This document shows positions 4,103 to 32,464 of a DNA stretch of 64,000 nucleotides, in pieces. The notes under the pieces are model-generated. The model did no database searches and was not told the origin of the DNA. It saw only the letters and a program-made list of their open reading frames with translations. Source of the DNA: Rhodoferax sp. Its GTDB lineage: Bacteria; Pseudomonadota; Gammaproteobacteria; Burkholderiales; Burkholderiaceae_C. The position numbers were made by a program, and so were the translations under genes. The DNA lies in assembly GCA_013791765.1 (NCBI GenBank), contig VMTC01000074.1:62001-126000 (forward strand). The letters run 5' to 3'. The first letter of the stretch is position 1, and every line of letters begins with the position of its first letter.

Positions 4103-4288
4103 GCCTATCCGGTTGGCACACCAGGGTGCGTACAAGCCACTTTGCTGGCCGGTACACAGACAAGGCGAGGCGCGTTTCGCGGAGGTCGCTGATCATGGGT
4201 TGTGCTAGAGAACTCCGCAGCGTTTCGTTTAAGGCCTTTAAGCGGCATCAACAAGACCATCAGGCGTTGGTGTGCCAACCGGATAGGC
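4103..4288. repeat. 186-bp element bounded by perfect 21-bp inverted repeats
   Basis: Bases 4103-4123 (starting GCCTATCCGGTTGGCACACC) are the exact reverse complement of 4268-4288. The same octamer GTTGAATC lies just outside both ends as a direct repeat (4092-4099 and 4292-4299). The 144 bp between the arms has no supported gene. This could be a miniature mobile element or a remnant; no transposase is nearby. Confidence 0.7.
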
Positions 4289-4302
4289 ATGGTTGAATCA
4301 GC

Positions 4303-4378
4303 CGGGCAATACGCTTTGCTACGTGTCCCCCGCCCGCTGCGCGGTCTCCTCCTTTACCTACGCAAAACGTATCACCCG
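4303..4378 (+). repeat. Family P palindromic element, copy 1
   Basis: The arms at 4303-4319 and 4362-4378 are inverted copies with three mismatches. The core between them reads CGTGTCCCCCGCCCGCTGCG followed by GGTCTCCTCCTTTACC, the conserved core of the family. It lies only 14 bp from the end of the 21-bp inverted-repeat element. Confidence 0.8.
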
Positions 4379-4526
4379 ACTGATTTTGCGAGCGCTCAGG
4401 TACGCTGGCAGGGGAGCAGTTAAAAGTTGCCTGAGTTGAATGTGGCGCGTATTGGTGTGAGCCCTTTACTGCAAAATTTTTGACCCAGGCAGCGTCAGGT
4501 ACGGTGATTGGGCTATGCGACCGGGC

Positions 4527-25077: not shown

Positions 25078-27900
25078 TCACGACGCGCGATTCGCCGAGC
25101 CCATTGGGGGGCTATCGCGCAGCATGCGTTGCAGTTGGGGCAGGCATGAGCCGCAATTGGTGCCGCACTTCAGCGCCGACTGCAGCCAGCCCAGCCGCTC
25201 CTGCGCGGTGCCCACGGTGCCGCGCAACTGCGCTTGAATCGCCACGTCGCTCACATTGAAACAGGCGCAGACCTGCGTGCCGCGGGGCGCAACCTGTACC
25301 GGCGGCTGCGCGCCCGGCACCAGCAGGGCGCGGCCATAGGCGTGGGCGGGCAGCTCGTCCTTGAGCAAGGTCGTGATCCAGCTTTGGGCACGGGTGTCGC
25401 CCGCCAGCATGAAGGCTTGCAGCGTGGTGTGCATATCGCCGTGTTGCAGCAGCGCGGCGCGCCGTTGCCCGCGCTTCTTGTCGGCGTAACGCAAGACATG
25501 GGGGCTGTCCAGGTTCAGCAGGGACTCAATCTGGGCCAGCAGCGCCTCACCCGGTGACTCATGGGCGCTGGCGCGAAACAGCAAGCCGCTGCGTTCCTGG
25601 CCGACTGCATCCAGGCCCGAGTTGTTGCTGAAAGGCACGCAACTCGCAAAGTCAAACTCGCGCATCAACTGCTGCAATTGCTGGCGTGCCCACTGCAAGT
25701 GGCTGTCGGGCAGCCAGGCCATGGCCAGCAGCGACCAGGGTAGTTCTGCCTTGAGGACTTTGACCGCAGCGTGTTTGAATTCTGGCTGTTTGGAGTCGGG
25801 GCAAAAGGCCAAGGTGGTCAAGGCGTTGACGCCCGCCAGGCGTTGGCCGCTGGCGCTGCGGCCGCTCAAGAATTCCTCACCCCAATGCATCGGCAGGAAG
25901 ACCTGACTCAAGCCCAAATCGGCACTGGCCTGCAGCGGCACGAGGATGGAGCCGCGCTTGCTGGTGACATACACCAGGTCGCCTTCTTTGAGCAGGCGGC
26001 GCGCCATGTCTTGCGGGTGCATCTGCAGCGCGGGCTCGGGCACATGACCAAACAGGCGCCCCAGCGTGCCGGTGCGGCTCATGCCATGCCATTGGTCACG
26101 CAGACGCCCGGTGCCCAGTGAAAACGGGTAGCGCGCTTCACGCGCTTCGGCCACGGGCGTGTAGGTCGTGTTGACAAAACGGGCACGGCCGTCAGGTGTG
26201 GGGAAGATTCCGTCCTGGTACAGCCGTGCCAGGCCCTGGGTTTGGCCCTCTCTCAAGGGCCACTGCTGGGGCGATTGTTCCAGCATGGCGTAGGTCATGC
26301 CGGTGATGTTGAGGTCGCGCCCGCGCGTGGATTCACGGTGTTCGTTCCAGATCGATTCGGGGCTGGGGTAGGGGAAAAGGGTGTTGGCTCGAAGGCGCTG
26401 GCCAAAATCGACGGCGATTTGCCAGTCGTGTCGCGCTTCGCCCGGTGCCGCCACGGCGGCGCGCACGCGCGAGATGCGCCGCTCGCTGTTGGTGACGGTG
26501 CCTTCTTTTTCGCCCCAGGTGGTGGCGGGCAGCAGCAAGTCCGCAAACGCACAGGTGGCGGTGCTGGCAAAGGCTTCCTGCACGACGACGAACTCGGCGC
26601 GTTCCAGGGCGCGGCGCACGGTGGCCTGATCCGGCATGCTTTGAGCTGGGTTGGTGCAGGCGATCCACAAGGCTTTGATCTCGCCGTCGGCGGCGGCCTG
26701 AAACATCTCGACTGCGGTCTTGCCGGGTTTGGAAGGAACCGAGGGCACACCCCAGAGCGCGGCGACTTCGGCGCAGTGCACCGGGTTGCTCAGATCACGG
26801 TGGCCTGACATCAAATTTGCCATGCCACCGACCTCGCGCCCGCCCATGGCGTTGGGCTGCCCGGTGAGTGACAACGGCCCGGAACCGATCTTGCCAATCT
26901 GGCCGGTAGCCAGATGCAGGTTGATCAGCGCAGCATTCTTGGCGCTGCCACTGCTGGACTGGTTCAGGCCCTGACAGTACAGGCTGAGCGTGGGGCTTCG
27001 ATGGGCCGGGTCGCCCGCATCAAGGCCGGCAAACAGGCGCGCTGCTGTGAGCAGATCCGCCAGCGTGATGCCGCAGGTTTGCGCGACCATGGACGGCGTG
27101 TAGTCGCGCACGGTGGCTTTGAGCGCCTCAAAGCCGCTGGTGTGGGCGGCTATATAGGCGCTGTCAAACCAGCCTTCCCATAACATGATGTGCAGCATGC
27201 CGTTAAACAGCATCACGTCGGTGCCGGGCTGGATCGGCAAGAACAGGTCGGCAATTTCAGCGGTGTCGGTGCGGCGCGGGTCGCACACCACAATTTTCAG
27301 ATCCGGGCGGGCCTGGCGCGCGGCCTCAATACGGCGAAACAGAACCGGGTGGGCGTAAGCGGGGTTGGCGCCGACGATAAAAATCGTGCCAGCGTGGTTC
27401 ACGTCATCAAAACAGGCTGGTGGCGCGTCCGAGCCCAGGGTCTGCTTGTAGCCCGTCACCGCGCTGCTCATGCACAGGCGCGAGTTGCTGTCGATGTTGT
27501 TGCTGCCGATCAGCCCCTTGGCGAGTTTGTTGAAGACGTAATAGTCTTCGGTCAGCAACTGGCCCGAGATGTAAAAACCGACCGCATCGGGGCCATGGGT
27601 CTGGATGATTTGGGTAAATTTCTGTGCCGCCGTGTCGAGCGCGGCATCCCATTTGACGCGCTGAAGCGGCTGGTCACGCGCCAAACGCTGCATCGGGTGC
27701 AGCAGTCTGCTCTGTTGCGTGATGGCGGCGCTGGCGCTGAGGTGCAGGGTGGAGCCCTTGGTGCAGAGCCGCCCGAAATTGGCGGGGTGCTGCGGGTCGC
27801 CGCGCACGCCGGTGATTTCATTGCCCTGAGACGTGATGATGACGCCGCAGCCGACGCCGCAGTACGGGCAGGTGGATTTGGTTTCTTTGAGCTGTTTCAT
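25078..27900 (-). CDS. nasA: Assimilatory nitrate reductase, catalytic subunit
   Basis: The product is 940 residues, a bis-MGD molybdoenzyme that reduces nitrate to nitrite in the cytoplasm. The [4Fe-4S] motif is near the N-terminus with Cys11, Cys14, Cys18 and Cys46 (STCPYCGVGCG then RLCTKGS). Downstream are the MGD-binding stretches (DSNSRLCMSSAVTGYKQTLG) and the molydopterin dinucleotide domain near 600-730. A C-terminal BFD-like [2Fe-2S] domain is present, with Cys pairs in VCACFNVSD and CGTNCGSCLP, as in Klebsiella NasA. It is last in nrtA-nrtB-nrtD-nirB-nirD-nasA; the 335 bp before it hold two palindromic elements. No Tat signal is present, consistent with a cytoplasmic assimilatory role. 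No separate nasC-type reductase gene is seen. Confidence 0.94.
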   Translation of the reverse strand: MKQLKETKSTCPYCGVGCGVIITSQGNEITGVRGDPQHPANFGRLCTKGSTLHLSASAAITQQSRLLHPMQRLARDQPLQRVKWDAALDTAAQKFTQIIQTHGPDAVGFYISGQLLTEDYYVFNKLAKGLIGSNNIDSNSRLCMSSAVTGYKQTLGSDAPPACFDDVNHAGTIFIVGANPAYAHPVLFRRIEAARQARPDLKIVVCDPRRTDTAEIADLFLPIQPGTDVMLFNGMLHIMLWEGWFDSAYIAAHTSGFEALKATVRDYTPSMVAQTCGITLADLLTAARLFAGLDAGDPAHRSPTLSLYCQGLNQSSSGSAKNAALINLHLATGQIGKIGSGPLSLTGQPNAMGGREVGGMANLMSGHRDLSNPVHCAEVAALWGVPSVPSKPGKTAVEMFQAAADGEIKALWIACTNPAQSMPDQATVRRALERAEFVVVQEAFASTATCAFADLLLPATTWGEKEGTVTNSERRISRVRAAVAAPGEARHDWQIAVDFGQRLRANTLFPYPSPESIWNEHRESTRGRDLNITGMTYAMLEQSPQQWPLREGQTQGLARLYQDGIFPTPDGRARFVNTTYTPVAEAREARYPFSLGTGRLRDQWHGMSRTGTLGRLFGHVPEPALQMHPQDMARRLLKEGDLVYVTSKRGSILVPLQASADLGLSQVFLPMHWGEEFLSGRSASGQRLAGVNALTTLAFCPDSKQPEFKHAAVKVLKAELPWSLLAMAWLPDSHLQWARQQLQQLMREFDFASCVPFSNNSGLDAVGQERSGLLFRASAHESPGEALLAQIESLLNLDSPHVLRYADKKRGQRRAALLQHGDMHTTLQAFMLAGDTRAQSWITTLLKDELPAHAYGRALLVPGAQPPVQVAPRGTQVCACFNVSDVAIQAQLRGTVGTAQERLGWLQSALKCGTNCGSCLPQLQRMLRDSPPMGSANRAS

Positions 27901-27952
27901 GAGGGTTCAAGCTCCTGCGTTTGGGTCTGCATCTGCGTCTGAGTCTGTGGAC

Positions 27953-28046
27953 GCCCAAGACACTGGGGTGGGTGGCGACGCGAATGTCCCCCGTCCTTCG
28001 TCCTCCTCCTTGACTTCGTTATGCCACTCACCCCAGTGTCTTGGGC
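27953..28046 (+). repeat. Family P palindromic element, copy 2
   Basis: The 24-bp arms at 27953-27976 and 28023-28046 are inverted copies with one mismatch. The core reads TGTCCCCCGTCCTTCGTCCT then CCTCCTTGACTTC. It lies between nirD and nasA. The right arm recurs once more as a direct repeat at 28057-28080 (23 of 24 identical), without its own core. Confidence 0.88.
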
Positions 28047-28130
28047 TGCGTGCGTGGCCACTCACCCCAGTGTCTTTGGCGGCGAGCATCGCGGGTTGCC
28101 GCAGCTTGCACGCCGACAACGCCCGCAAGA

Positions 28131-28220
28131 TCAGGTCGCTGTGGCGCTCGGCGCAGCGGCGTAAAGGAGGAGGACGAAGGACGGGGGACAGCCGCGCAGC
28201 CGAGCGCCACGGCGGCCTGA
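28131..28220 (-). repeat. Family P palindromic element, copy 3 (inverted)
   Basis: The arms at 28131-28152 and 28199-28220 are inverted copies with two mismatches. The core between them is the same as in copy 2 but on the minus strand (plus strand reads AAAGGAGGAGGACGAAGGAC, then GGGGGACAG). The arm sequence is unrelated to that of copy 2, only 85 bp away. Confidence 0.88.
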
Positions 28221-28235
28221 TCCACCCACGGCGCG

Positions 28236-28583
28236 TCATGCAGCCTCGCCCACGCCCACAGACGCCAACTCCTGCAAGTCCAAATGCACCGCATCACCCT
28301 CCACCAAGACGCTAAACCTCTGCACACAACCCGCGTCCGGCGCCTGGGCACAGCCCGTGTCCAGGCCAATGGTCCAGTTGTGCAGCGGGCAGGCCACGCT
28401 GGTGCCGAACACAATGCCCTGGCTTAAGGGGCCGCCTTTGTGCGGGCAGCGGTCCAGCAGCGCAAAGACCTCGTTTTGCGCGTTGCGAAAAACCGCCACA
28501 TCGGGGCCCTGTGGCCGTTGGATGCAACGCGATCCCAGCACGGGGATGTCGGTGACCTGGCAGATTTTCTTCCATTGGCTCAT
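28236..28583 (-). CDS. nirD: Nitrite reductase (NADH) small subunit
   Basis: The product is 115 residues and fits NirD, the Rieske-fold subunit of assimilatory nitrite reductase. It keeps a full Rieske ligand set: Cys46 and His48 in CPHKGG, and Cys65 and His68 in CPLHNW, suggesting that it binds a [2Fe-2S] cluster; many enteric NirD proteins lack these residues. It follows nirB on the minus strand after a 146-bp gap that contains family-Q copy 4. It works with NirB to reduce nitrite to ammonium. Confidence 0.92.
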   Translation of the reverse strand: MSQWKKICQVTDIPVLGSRCIQRPQGPDVAVFRNAQNEVFALLDRCPHKGGPLSQGIVFGTSVACPLHNWTIGLDTGCAQAPDAGCVQRFSVLVEGDAVHLDLQELASVGVGEAA

Positions 28584-28729: not shown

Positions 28730-31381
28730 TCATGCCGGCACCGCCAGTTTGTCAAACTGACGCAAATCCACCTCGGCCCGGCTGAACTCAAACCACGGAT
28801 CGGGCTCGCCGTCCAGGCTGAACTGCAGCCGCGCCCACAGCGCCTGGCGGTTCTCTTGGTCTTCCAGAATCTTCTTCTTGACATGCTCCATGCCGACCCG
28901 CTTGAGGTAATGCACGGTGCGCTCCAGGTACCAGCCTTCCTCCCGGTAGAGTTGCATGAAGGCGCCGGTGTACTCCAGCACTTCGTCGGCGGTTTTGAGC
29001 TTGGTGAAATAGTGCGCCACCTCGGTCTTGATGCCGCCGTTGCCGCCAATGTGCATCTCCCAGCCGCTGTCGACACCGATGATGCCGACGTCCTTGATGC
29101 CGGCCTCGGCGCAATTGCGCGGGCAACCACTCACCGCAAACTTCACCTTGTGCGGCGCGTACATGCGCCACATGGCGCGTTCCAGGTCCTTGCCCATCTG
29201 CGTGCTGTCCTGCGTGCCCATGCGGCACCACTCCGAGCCGACGCAGGTCTTGACGGTGCGCAGCGCTTTGGCATAGGCGTGGCCGCTGGGCATGCCGATG
29301 TCTTTCCAGACGTTCACCAGGTCTTCCTTTTTGACGCCTAGCAGGTCAATGCGCTGCCCGCCGGTGACCTTGACGGTGGGAATCTGGTATTTGTCCACCG
29401 CGTCCGCAATGCGGCGCAGCTCACTGGCCGTGGTCTCTCCGCCCCACATGCGCGGAATCACCGAGTAGGTGCCGTCTTTTTGGATGTTGGCGTGGCTGCG
29501 CTCGTTGATGAACCTGCTTTGCGGATCGTCCCTGGCCTCCTTGGGCCAGCTGCTGATCAGGTAGTAGTTCACGGCGGGGCGGCAGGAGGCACAGCCGTTG
29601 GGCGTTTTCCATTCCATGAAGTTGAAGACACTGGCGATGCTGAGCAGCTTATTGGCGACGATCGCATCGCGCACCGCCTGGTGCCCGTGCTCGGTGCAGG
29701 CGCACAGGGCTTTCATCTTCGGTGTGGCCGAGTAGTCACCACCCGCCGTGAACATCAACAGCTGCTCGACCAGCCCGGTGCACGAGCCGCACGAGGCGCT
29801 GGCCTTGGTGTGCTTGCGCACTTCGTCGAGCGTGAACAGTCCTTTTTCCTTGATGGTCTTGCAGATCGTTCCTTTGGTGACACCGTTGCAGCCACACACT
29901 TCGTCGCTGTCGAGCATGCTGGCGGCCTTGTTGTGACCCTGGACGCCGGCGTCGCCAATATTGGATTCGCCAAACATCAGCTTGTCGCGGATGTCGGCCA
30001 CTGAGCGGCCATCGCGCAGCAGCTTGAAGTACCAGCTACCGTCGATCGTGTCGCCATACAGGCAGGCACCCACCAGCTTGTCGTCCTTGATGACGAGCTT
30101 TTTGTAGACACCAGCAAAGGGGTCGCTCAGCACCAGCTCTTCAGTGCCATCGCCACCCAGAAAGTCGCCGGCTGAAAACAGATCGATGCCGGTGACCTTG
30201 AGCTTGGTTGAGGTGAGCGAGCCAACATAGCGCCCGATGCCGAACTGCGCCAGGTGATTCGCCGCCACCTTGGCCTGCTCGAACAGCGGCGCCACCAGGC
30301 CATAGGCAATGCCCCGGTGCGCCGCGCATTCGCCGACCGCATAAATGCGCGCGTCGGTGATGGTCTGCAGCGTGTCGTTGACCACGATGCCTTTGTTGCA
30401 GTGCAGGCGCATGCTCTCTGCCAGCTCGGTATTGGGGCGAATGCCCACCGCCATCACGACCAGTTCGGCCGGAACAACGCTACCATCTTGGAAGCGCACG
30501 GCGCACACCCGGTCTGGGCTGCAGGCCAATTTGGCTTGTAAATCTAACGCGCTGTCGGCCTGCGCTTGGGTGCCTCCTGCGGCAGCTGCATCCACTTGTA
30601 GCCTGGGCGGCAAAGCGTTCTGCTCCGTGTCCCCCGCCCGCTGCGCGGGCTCCTCCTTGACCTGCGCAGTACGCTTTGCCGCCCAGGCTACAAGGTCGGC
30701 GGGTTTGAGCAGCGCCTGCGTCTGGGCGCCCATCAGAAACTTGAGGCCACGCTCTTCCAGTGACTTTTGCAGCAGCTTGCCGGCCACCACGTCGAGCTGG
30801 CGCTCCATCAAGGTGGGCATGACGTGCACCACGCTCACGCTCATGCCACGGCGCATCAGGCCGTTGGCTGCCTCCAGGCCCAAGAGGCCGCCACCAATGA
30901 CGACCGCGTGCTTGAAGTTTTTGGCCGCGTCGATCATGGCGTTGGTGTCGGCAATGTCGCGGTAGGCGATCACGCCTTCCAGGTCTTTGCCGGGCACGGG
31001 CAGGATGAAGGGCTTGGAGCCGGTGGCCATCAAGAGCCGGTCGTAGCCGGCACTGATTTTTTCACCGGCCGCATTCTCGCCATGCACGACACGGCGAATG
31101 CGGTCCACCTCGGTGACCTTGCAGCCAGCGTGCAGTGTGATGTGGTTGTCGGTGTACCACTCCCACGAGTTCAAGATGATCTCGTCCATGGTCTGCTCGC
31201 CAGCGAGCACCGGCGAGAGCAGGATGCGGTTGTAGTTGGGGTGCGGCTCGGCGCCGAAGACCGTCATGTCGTACAGGTCGGGCGCAATTTTCAACAACTC
31301 TTCGAGCGTGCGCACACCGGCCATGCCGTTGCCGATCATCACGAGCTTCATCTTGGTTTTAGGGGCTACGCGCATGTCCAT
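28730..31381 (-). CDS. nirB: Nitrite reductase (NADH) large subunit with a palindromic insert
   Basis: The product is 883 residues, longer than common NirB proteins (about 800-860 as I recall). It reduces nitrite to ammonium with NADH. The N-terminal FAD/NAD region starts VMIGNGMAGVRTLEEL; a BFD-like [2Fe-2S] domain (CGCNGVTKG then SCGSCTGLVEQLL) follows; the siroheme/[4Fe-4S] ligands are in CVGSEWC and SGCPRNCAE near the C-terminus. The start at 31381 has an AAGGAGAA site. Residues about 230-262 are encoded by a perfect-armed family-P palindrome (30596-30694) placed in frame between the NAD-domain motifs LMGAQTQALL and AVRFQDGSVVPAELVVMAVG. That segment is low in complexity, presumably a surface loop. 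All catalytic motifs are intact, so the enzyme is probably active. Confidence 0.95.
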   Translation of the reverse strand: MDMRVAPKTKMKLVMIGNGMAGVRTLEELLKIAPDLYDMTVFGAEPHPNYNRILLSPVLAGEQTMDEIILNSWEWYTDNHITLHAGCKVTEVDRIRRVVHGENAAGEKISAGYDRLLMATGSKPFILPVPGKDLEGVIAYRDIADTNAMIDAAKNFKHAVVIGGGLLGLEAANGLMRRGMSVSVVHVMPTLMERQLDVVAGKLLQKSLEERGLKFLMGAQTQALLKPADLVAWAAKRTAQVKEEPAQRAGDTEQNALPPRLQVDAAAAGGTQAQADSALDLQAKLACSPDRVCAVRFQDGSVVPAELVVMAVGIRPNTELAESMRLHCNKGIVVNDTLQTITDARIYAVGECAAHRGIAYGLVAPLFEQAKVAANHLAQFGIGRYVGSLTSTKLKVTGIDLFSAGDFLGGDGTEELVLSDPFAGVYKKLVIKDDKLVGACLYGDTIDGSWYFKLLRDGRSVADIRDKLMFGESNIGDAGVQGHNKAASMLDSDEVCGCNGVTKGTICKTIKEKGLFTLDEVRKHTKASASCGSCTGLVEQLLMFTAGGDYSATPKMKALCACTEHGHQAVRDAIVANKLLSIASVFNFMEWKTPNGCASCRPAVNYYLISSWPKEARDDPQSRFINERSHANIQKDGTYSVIPRMWGGETTASELRRIADAVDKYQIPTVKVTGGQRIDLLGVKKEDLVNVWKDIGMPSGHAYAKALRTVKTCVGSEWCRMGTQDSTQMGKDLERAMWRMYAPHKVKFAVSGCPRNCAEAGIKDVGIIGVDSGWEMHIGGNGGIKTEVAHYFTKLKTADEVLEYTGAFMQLYREEGWYLERTVHYLKRVGMEHVKKKILEDQENRQALWARLQFSLDGEPDPWFEFSRAEVDLRQFDKLAVPA
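30596..30694 (+). repeat. Family P palindromic element, copy 4, in frame inside nirB
   Basis: The 23-bp arms at 30596-30618 and 30672-30694 are perfect inverted copies. The core carries CGTGTCCCCCGCCCGCTGCG and GGGCTCCTCCTTGACC. The element is 99 bp, exactly 33 codons, and is translated as part of NirB (the core gives QVKEEPAQRAGDTE). No stop codon occurs in the used frame. Confidence 0.92.
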
Positions 31382-31461
31382 GGGGTTCTCCTTGTTGTCT
31401 CTAAATGGTTGAGGACAGAGCTTGTTCACTGCGTGTAACTCTTGGTCTGTCCCGCATGGTC

Positions 31462-32283: not shown

Positions 32284-32338
32284 GGTGGTCCTCATTTGAT
32301 TTTTCAAAGATCTCGGCGGATGTAAGGAGTGGTGCGGC

Positions 32339-32426
32339 CGGCAAGCATGGGCGTGCAACTCCGTTCGTGTCCCCCGCCCTTCGGGCTCCTCCTTGACCTC
32401 ACTGCGTTGCACACCCACGCTTGCCG
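32339..32426 (+). repeat. Family P palindromic element, copy 5
   Basis: The 20-bp arms at 32339-32358 and 32407-32426 are inverted copies with two mismatches (left arm CGGCAAGCATGGGCGTGCAA). The core reads CGTGTCCCCCGCCCTTCGGG then CTCCTCCTTGACC. It lies in the nrtB-nrtD gap. Confidence 0.9.
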
Positions 32427-32464
32427 ACCTGAGGCGTTGTGGCAGTCCTGCACGCGCGCCCCAC

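Follow-up and report, generated by a model that had tools for sequence, protein, structure and literature searches.

The stretch of Rhodoferax DNA analysed here (64,000 nucleotides, hereafter the window) contains a palindrome inside the reading frame of a gene which, from its Pfam domains (Pyr_redox_2, Fer2_BFD and NIR_SIR), we take to be nirB, encoding the large subunit of nitrite reductase (ORF 28730-31429, minus strand; likely ATG start at 31381). The locus raises the question of whether these codons are a native segment of NirB or a copy of a dispersed repeat and, if the latter, how a palindrome keeps its symmetry inside a coding sequence. The sequence-only reading had placed a 99-bp element with perfect 23-bp arms at 30596-30694. 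The palindrome is real, but it occupies 30595-30694 (minus strand, LVAWAAKRTAQVKEEPAQRAGDTEQNALPPRLQ), one base more on the left, and its inverted arms are 30 bp long (30595-30624 on the left and 30665-30694 on the right, in the plus-strand view), with the outer 24 bp perfectly complementary and two mismatches further in. Between them lies an asymmetric core of 40 bp (30625-30664, plus strand; CCGTGTCCCCCG-hairpin-CTCCTCCTTGACCTG), which stands in the KEEP orientation relative to nirB. On the minus strand this orientation places AAGGAGGAG, presumably a Shine-Dalgarno-like stretch, in the coding sequence, and the flipped orientation would place its complement there. The folding energy computed for the RNA of positions 30591-30694 is -70.5 kcal/mol.

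The NirB reading frame is open through the element, as had been proposed, and the 33 codons of 30596-30694 encode residues 230-262 when counted from the ATG at 31381, in agreement with the earlier count, or residues 246-278 when counted from the far GTG. Pfam matches flank the insert on either side and support the identity of the gene; Pyr_redox_2 is matched in two stretches of NirB, the better of which ends at residue 245, the start of the insert. A single structure prediction, made from a 30-row alignment with three rows covering the insert, gave a NirB fragment with a mean pLDDT of 73.9 and weakly suggests that the insert (fragment residues 222-254) is positioned between strands of the NAD domain. 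In this model residues 219-235 are helical and residues 238-268 have pLDDT values below 50; alignment with the solved relatives 1xhc and 3klj runs to fragment residue 210-212 and resumes at 292-295.

The placement in a loop of the NAD domain was borne out by comparison with element-free relatives. Among the best 80 of 378 NirB loci from named genomes (including Rhodoferax, Polaromonas, Acidovorax and Hydrogenophaga; the nearest are Rhodoferax and other Comamonadaceae), all 80 loops were readable, and the element is present in two and absent from 78, so that the 33 codons are indeed missing from most homologues. Both carriers, Rhodoferax sp. STC_134 (L041, loop of 122 aa) and a Comamonadaceae metagenome genome (L042, 126 aa), have it in frame, and the loop of the window copy has 130 aa. 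Of the 78 element-free loops, 71 have 70-75 residues and seven have 78-100, and the two most similar ones (L049 and L068) have 74 aa versus 122-130 aa with the element. About 15-23 residues were gained on top of the element, and the nirB site therefore yields no exact boundary. The complete 150-residue NirB query including the insert was matched in three of 89 genus genomes (its own, G047 and G012), the last two of which may represent the species of L041 and L042. The possibility that NirB has these 33 codons as a regular conserved segment, to which their occurrence in the window and two related loci might point, is ruled out by their absence from 78 of the best 80 of 378 loci, and the same DNA is found in unrelated genes; we give it essentially no credence. 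The comparison supports the insert as one copy of a dispersed palindromic family. One of the seven longer loops, that of Hydrogenophaga L061, holds another inverted repeat at the same place; this second family (CCGTTCGGGCTGAGCCTGTCGAAG arm, peptide VRAEPVEA...) is in frame at two sites, the NirB loop of L061 (4001-6511) and the HrpA loop of L269, a relative from the genus.

A BLAST search of the element against its own genome returned 42 matches, most of them to a subfamily with other arms. Out of 32 rows of this subfamily, 26 allowed scoring of either side, and none of these had a two-sided coding signal. Copies with unrelated self-complementary arms have GTGTCCCCCG, a variable hairpin and CTCCTCCTTGAC in common with few changes. 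Within the family, the core pattern GTGTCCCCCG-N4-24-CTCCTCCTTKAC was found in 50 of 200 genomes, representing 40 of 141 genera (none for the reversed-pattern control). Of 300 genomes sampled from the order, three have it (its own, a second from this family and one from a different family); in a separate control, the reversed pattern with one mismatch matched once, in G043. The nirB-type subfamily was detected by pattern in at least 44 of the 89 genus genomes. One viral contig carries the exact core pattern, and no match was found among 72,556 plasmid records at E 1e-5.

The window itself holds further copies. Two elements of the same superfamily, with arms unrelated to those of the nirB copy, form an inverted pair (27948-28047, plus strand, and 28128-28227, minus strand), the first of them lying between the ORFs 25078-27900 and 28236-28583. 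Another, also with other arms, is found at 32331-32430 (plus strand) between genes that we take to encode an ABC-type ATPase and a permease. Inverted pairs some 100-200 bp apart recur (window 27948-28227, L035, L039, L040 and L081) and resemble REP doublets, with arms that differ between the two members. A copy of the subfamily abundant in the own genome (GAATCAGCCGGGC-type arms) is located at 4287-4390 (plus strand). In this subfamily (the window copy and L002-L034) conserved flanks continue far past the arms, to roughly 190 bp overall, and many copies lie near contig ends, which suggests that they may break assembly.

The strong folding and the arm covariation described below would also fit a functional RNA or a terminator-like structure under selection, with the copies in genes being incidental, as would the position of the copies between genes: in six of six loci with oppositely directed coding signals on the two sides, the genes converge on the element. 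However, no Rfam family reached its cut-off in the 64-kb window, the five matches obtained by E-value in seven loci (four miRNA models and one IRES model) were weak and fell far under the cut-off, and presence among orthologues is patchy. A role as RNA thus seems an unlikely explanation of the family, and a dispersed repeat that also enters genes is preferred.

The sequence-only reading had expected the core inside further genes, and about 12 gene families of Comamonadaceae were found to carry it in frame, as judged from open frames and Pfam matches, with one element subfamily adding 31-33 residues. Twenty loci were chosen because a long open frame runs through the element. A further 80 were drawn from the listed pattern matches without selection for coding, excluding those 20 and most contig-end sites, and an in-gene call required a reading frame without stops over 25 or more codons to each side, together with coding-like codon use; 13 of 83 sites in these 80 loci passed and 70 did not. 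The Pfam-supported hosts comprise an N6_N4 methylase, a UvrD helicase with a PDDEXK nuclease (RecB-like), a DUF3418 helicase (HrpA), a CobB-type protein, an amine oxidase, a Pyr_redox protein, a Mur ligase (Mpl type), YjeF/NnrE and a nitroreductase-domain protein, the gene names beyond those of Pfam being assumed. In other genera of the family the element also occurs in MutL and MutS (in-frame copies in L365 and L368) and again in the methylase and the Mur ligase. The insert lies within a single Pfam domain match in the RecB-like protein, amine oxidase, Pyr_redox, Mur ligase, NnrE and MutS, and between domains in HrpA, CobB and MutL. It follows the only domain match of the methylase and precedes that of the nitroreductase protein, so that these two host calls rest on open frame and codon use.

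The frame read by the host genes is mostly AERSA...NALPP, and for many of these copies the query that detected them was itself in that frame; two of the 13 in-gene calls (L183 and L226) use another frame. Two sites were not counted as host families, L183 (42 codons from the ORF end) and L170 (AMMECR1, at the N-terminus). The inner length equals 1 mod 3 in 31 of 31 genic copies versus 35 of 66 others. As proof of targeting this statistic was rejected as circular, since the genic call itself demanded an open frame. The inner lengths (37 or 40 nt) and the open frames would let the subfamily persist inside genes.

Element-free orthologues were read for NirB, HrpA, CobB, the RecB-like protein and NnrE, and in all five the element is absent from orthologues at the same site. 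The clean case is NnrE, in which one of 25 loci has 31 extra codons and the other 24 all have 71 aa. It is also the only clean empty site, with a net gain of 93 bp and, by hand reckoning, a possible 2-bp AA repeat. For HrpA, 28 loops were read in 30 loci, of which five carry the element and 23 do not; the loop has 80-83 aa with the element versus 40-41 aa in the eight bare loops. The remaining 15 hold something else, and 10 of 12 tested contain other inverted repeats scoring above all 30 shuffles. Those of L256-L263 and L265 are in frame and of the PSPQPSPGGRG or the GGGGTCAGA...TCTGACCCC type. With several in-frame inverted repeats, the HrpA loop looks like a general insertion hot spot. For CobB, 29 loops were read in 30 loci and 19 are element-free, including L293 and L301, which matched a loose core pattern with the element peptide absent. 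The loop has 102 aa with the element, and the element-free loops have 74-77 aa in 14 of the 19 and 85-91 aa in the other five.

Comparison of occupied orthologous sites revealed the coding core in both directions at the same site, a finding new here that goes beyond the earlier view of the locus. It was observed in four gene families: HrpA (four KEEP and one opposite in the 28 loops read), CobB (two KEEP and eight opposite in the 29 loops read), the RecB-like protein (L313 and L316 opposed to L314 and L315) and the Mur ligase (L369 and L372 opposed to L178). NirB (three loci) and the methylase (seven loci) have the KEEP direction only. In one pair per family, core identity rose from 48% in direct to 86% in inverted alignment for HrpA (L254-L255), from 45% to 88% for CobB (L281-L282), from 46% to 92% for the RecB-like protein (L313-L315) and from 52% to 87% for the Mur ligase (L178-L369); the pairs L282-L283, L316-L315 and L313-L316 yielded no result. 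In the HrpA, CobB and RecB-like pairs the surroundings are collinear, with 77-90% identity of the arms and 67-90% of the 60-nt flanks in direct alignment. Depending on orientation, the central peptide takes forms of QVKEEPAQRAGDTEQ or PCPPPALRAPPLPAQ, neither of which has stops. All orientation differences are between species, and none was seen within one species.

Opposite cores could have arisen by separate insertions into the same permissive loop, one per direction. The HrpA loop does accept varied repeats, as the 10 of 12 other loops testing above shuffles show, and the CobB tree requires many changes: its labels need eight, a number as low in 45 of 200 shuffles, and they are no more clustered than chance. 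In this tree 11 of 25 inner branches are open and L281, a KEEP copy, falls together with two loci lacking the element, so that repeated insertion, loss or exchange may have occurred at this site. In the HrpA tree the labels cluster (2 of 200 shuffles), but the placement of L254 and L255 is poorly supported. Against separate insertions, HrpA L254 and L255 have opposite cores and both have RGGSHEATPGVG-AGRSA outside the core, CobB L281 and L282 likewise both have GACGG-TGGGTGGC outside opposite cores, and the two orientations occur in four gene families. Independent arrivals are accordingly judged improbable, and inversion of the core in place is the favoured reading.

The arms change in a coupled manner. 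In the ten CobB orthologues that carry the element, both members had changed in 12 of 26 arm pairs (20 cells), and pairing is kept in 92.3% of cells; none of 500 shuffles reached either value, and slid pairings had at most one such pair. Such covariation could result from selection on RNA or DNA structure instead. Template switching reportedly also maintains RNA hairpins (PMC8794818). In yeast coding genes it yields both arm homogenisation and spacer inversion (PMC8604942), and both features were seen here, between species only. The yeast cases differ in that the spacer inversions involved 2-5 substituted bases, not about 40 (PMC8604942), which counts against template switching here, where the spacer of about 40 bp belongs to a dispersed repeat present in several genes.

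Alternatively, the core might be inverted by a dedicated enzyme, either a transposase or a site-specific recombinase, that recognises the folded hairpin. This would agree with the pattern of conservation, which is restricted to bases of the core that the predicted fold leaves mostly unpaired: the paired parts vary widely, and most of GTGTCCCCCG and CTCCTCCTTGAC is constant even in copies whose arms are unrelated. A search of the own genome for Y1_Tnp, however, gave two genes with no core in their loci of about 3 kb, and thus neither a linked recombinase nor a RAYT link. Template switching accounts for arm homogenisation without such an enzyme, and enzymatic inversion of the core is considered doubtful beside it. 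Terminal inverted repeats are present, as in a MITE. By eye, the ends of the 119 listed copies of all subfamilies showed neither a convincing target duplication nor a common GTAG or CGTC end tag; the window copy has a GTAG within its arm.

Protein-coding palindromes are reportedly present in Wolbachia and M. jannaschii. The Rickettsia palindromic elements (RPEs) are described as palindromes of about 100-150 bp that are both intergenic and in frame in many unrelated genes (PMC2229807, PMC10969869). In-frame palindromes had been thought to be known from Rickettsia alone, but they are documented also in Thauera, O. terrae, R. conorii and others (PMC3733652, section 15), and thus the kind was already known. 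The proposed resemblance to RPEs holds in that the palindrome is in frame in several unrelated genes and missing from orthologues at the same site, so that the element behaves like an RPE. It need not be one: the hosts of RPEs are Rickettsia and those here Comamonadaceae, and here one core is common to copies with unrelated arms. A further possible difference is that this core occurs in both orientations at one site.

REPs, 20-40 bp long (PMC3733652), are found inside genes, many of them for DNA synthesis or repair, with Thauera among the species (PMC3733652, section 15). GTAG- and CGTC-tagged REPs and BIMEs are likewise palindromic, often dimeric, often at gene 3' ends and sometimes in genes, and their bias toward DNA-repair genes is echoed here by the MutS, MutL, RecB-like and HrpA hosts. 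In contrast to them, the element here is a longer single unit, with no conserved GTAG or CGTC end tag and no RAYT link found in its own genome. Coding MITEs (ERIC/RU and others) are also small inverted-repeat elements, which may form in-frame fusions (PMC10969869); the present family is distinguished from them by highly variable arms around a fixed core, and target duplication was not demonstrated. Neither this Comamonadaceae palindrome family nor the inversion of a coding core in any dispersed bacterial palindrome was described in the literature covered (titles, abstracts and passages, with few subscription journals).

Taken together, the element is probably a dispersed in-gene palindrome of Comamonadaceae, whose core is inverted in place by template switching. 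The repeat, presumably non-autonomous and moved through an enzyme, would insert as a unit of about 93-96 bp, and one arm subfamily would persist in genes, in loops or linkers, as 31-33 extra residues that are probably translated and near-neutral for the host enzyme. Template switching between the arms during replication, the likely agent, would keep them complementary and occasionally invert the core in place, so that the central 13-14 residues switch from one peptide to the other without a change of frame. A bolder version, in which the element is a self-inverting coding cassette whose 40-bp core is flipped by replication in living genes, exchanging this peptide block in conserved enzymes maybe so often that it is polymorphic within populations, is offered tentatively as a possibility.

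Protein-coding palindromes are now extended to Comamonadaceae and linked to a specific mutational process. A single mechanism would account for both near-perfect palindromes despite sequence drift and the one-step swap of a protein block without a frameshift, and the survival of selfish palindromes inside conserved genes becomes a directly testable question.
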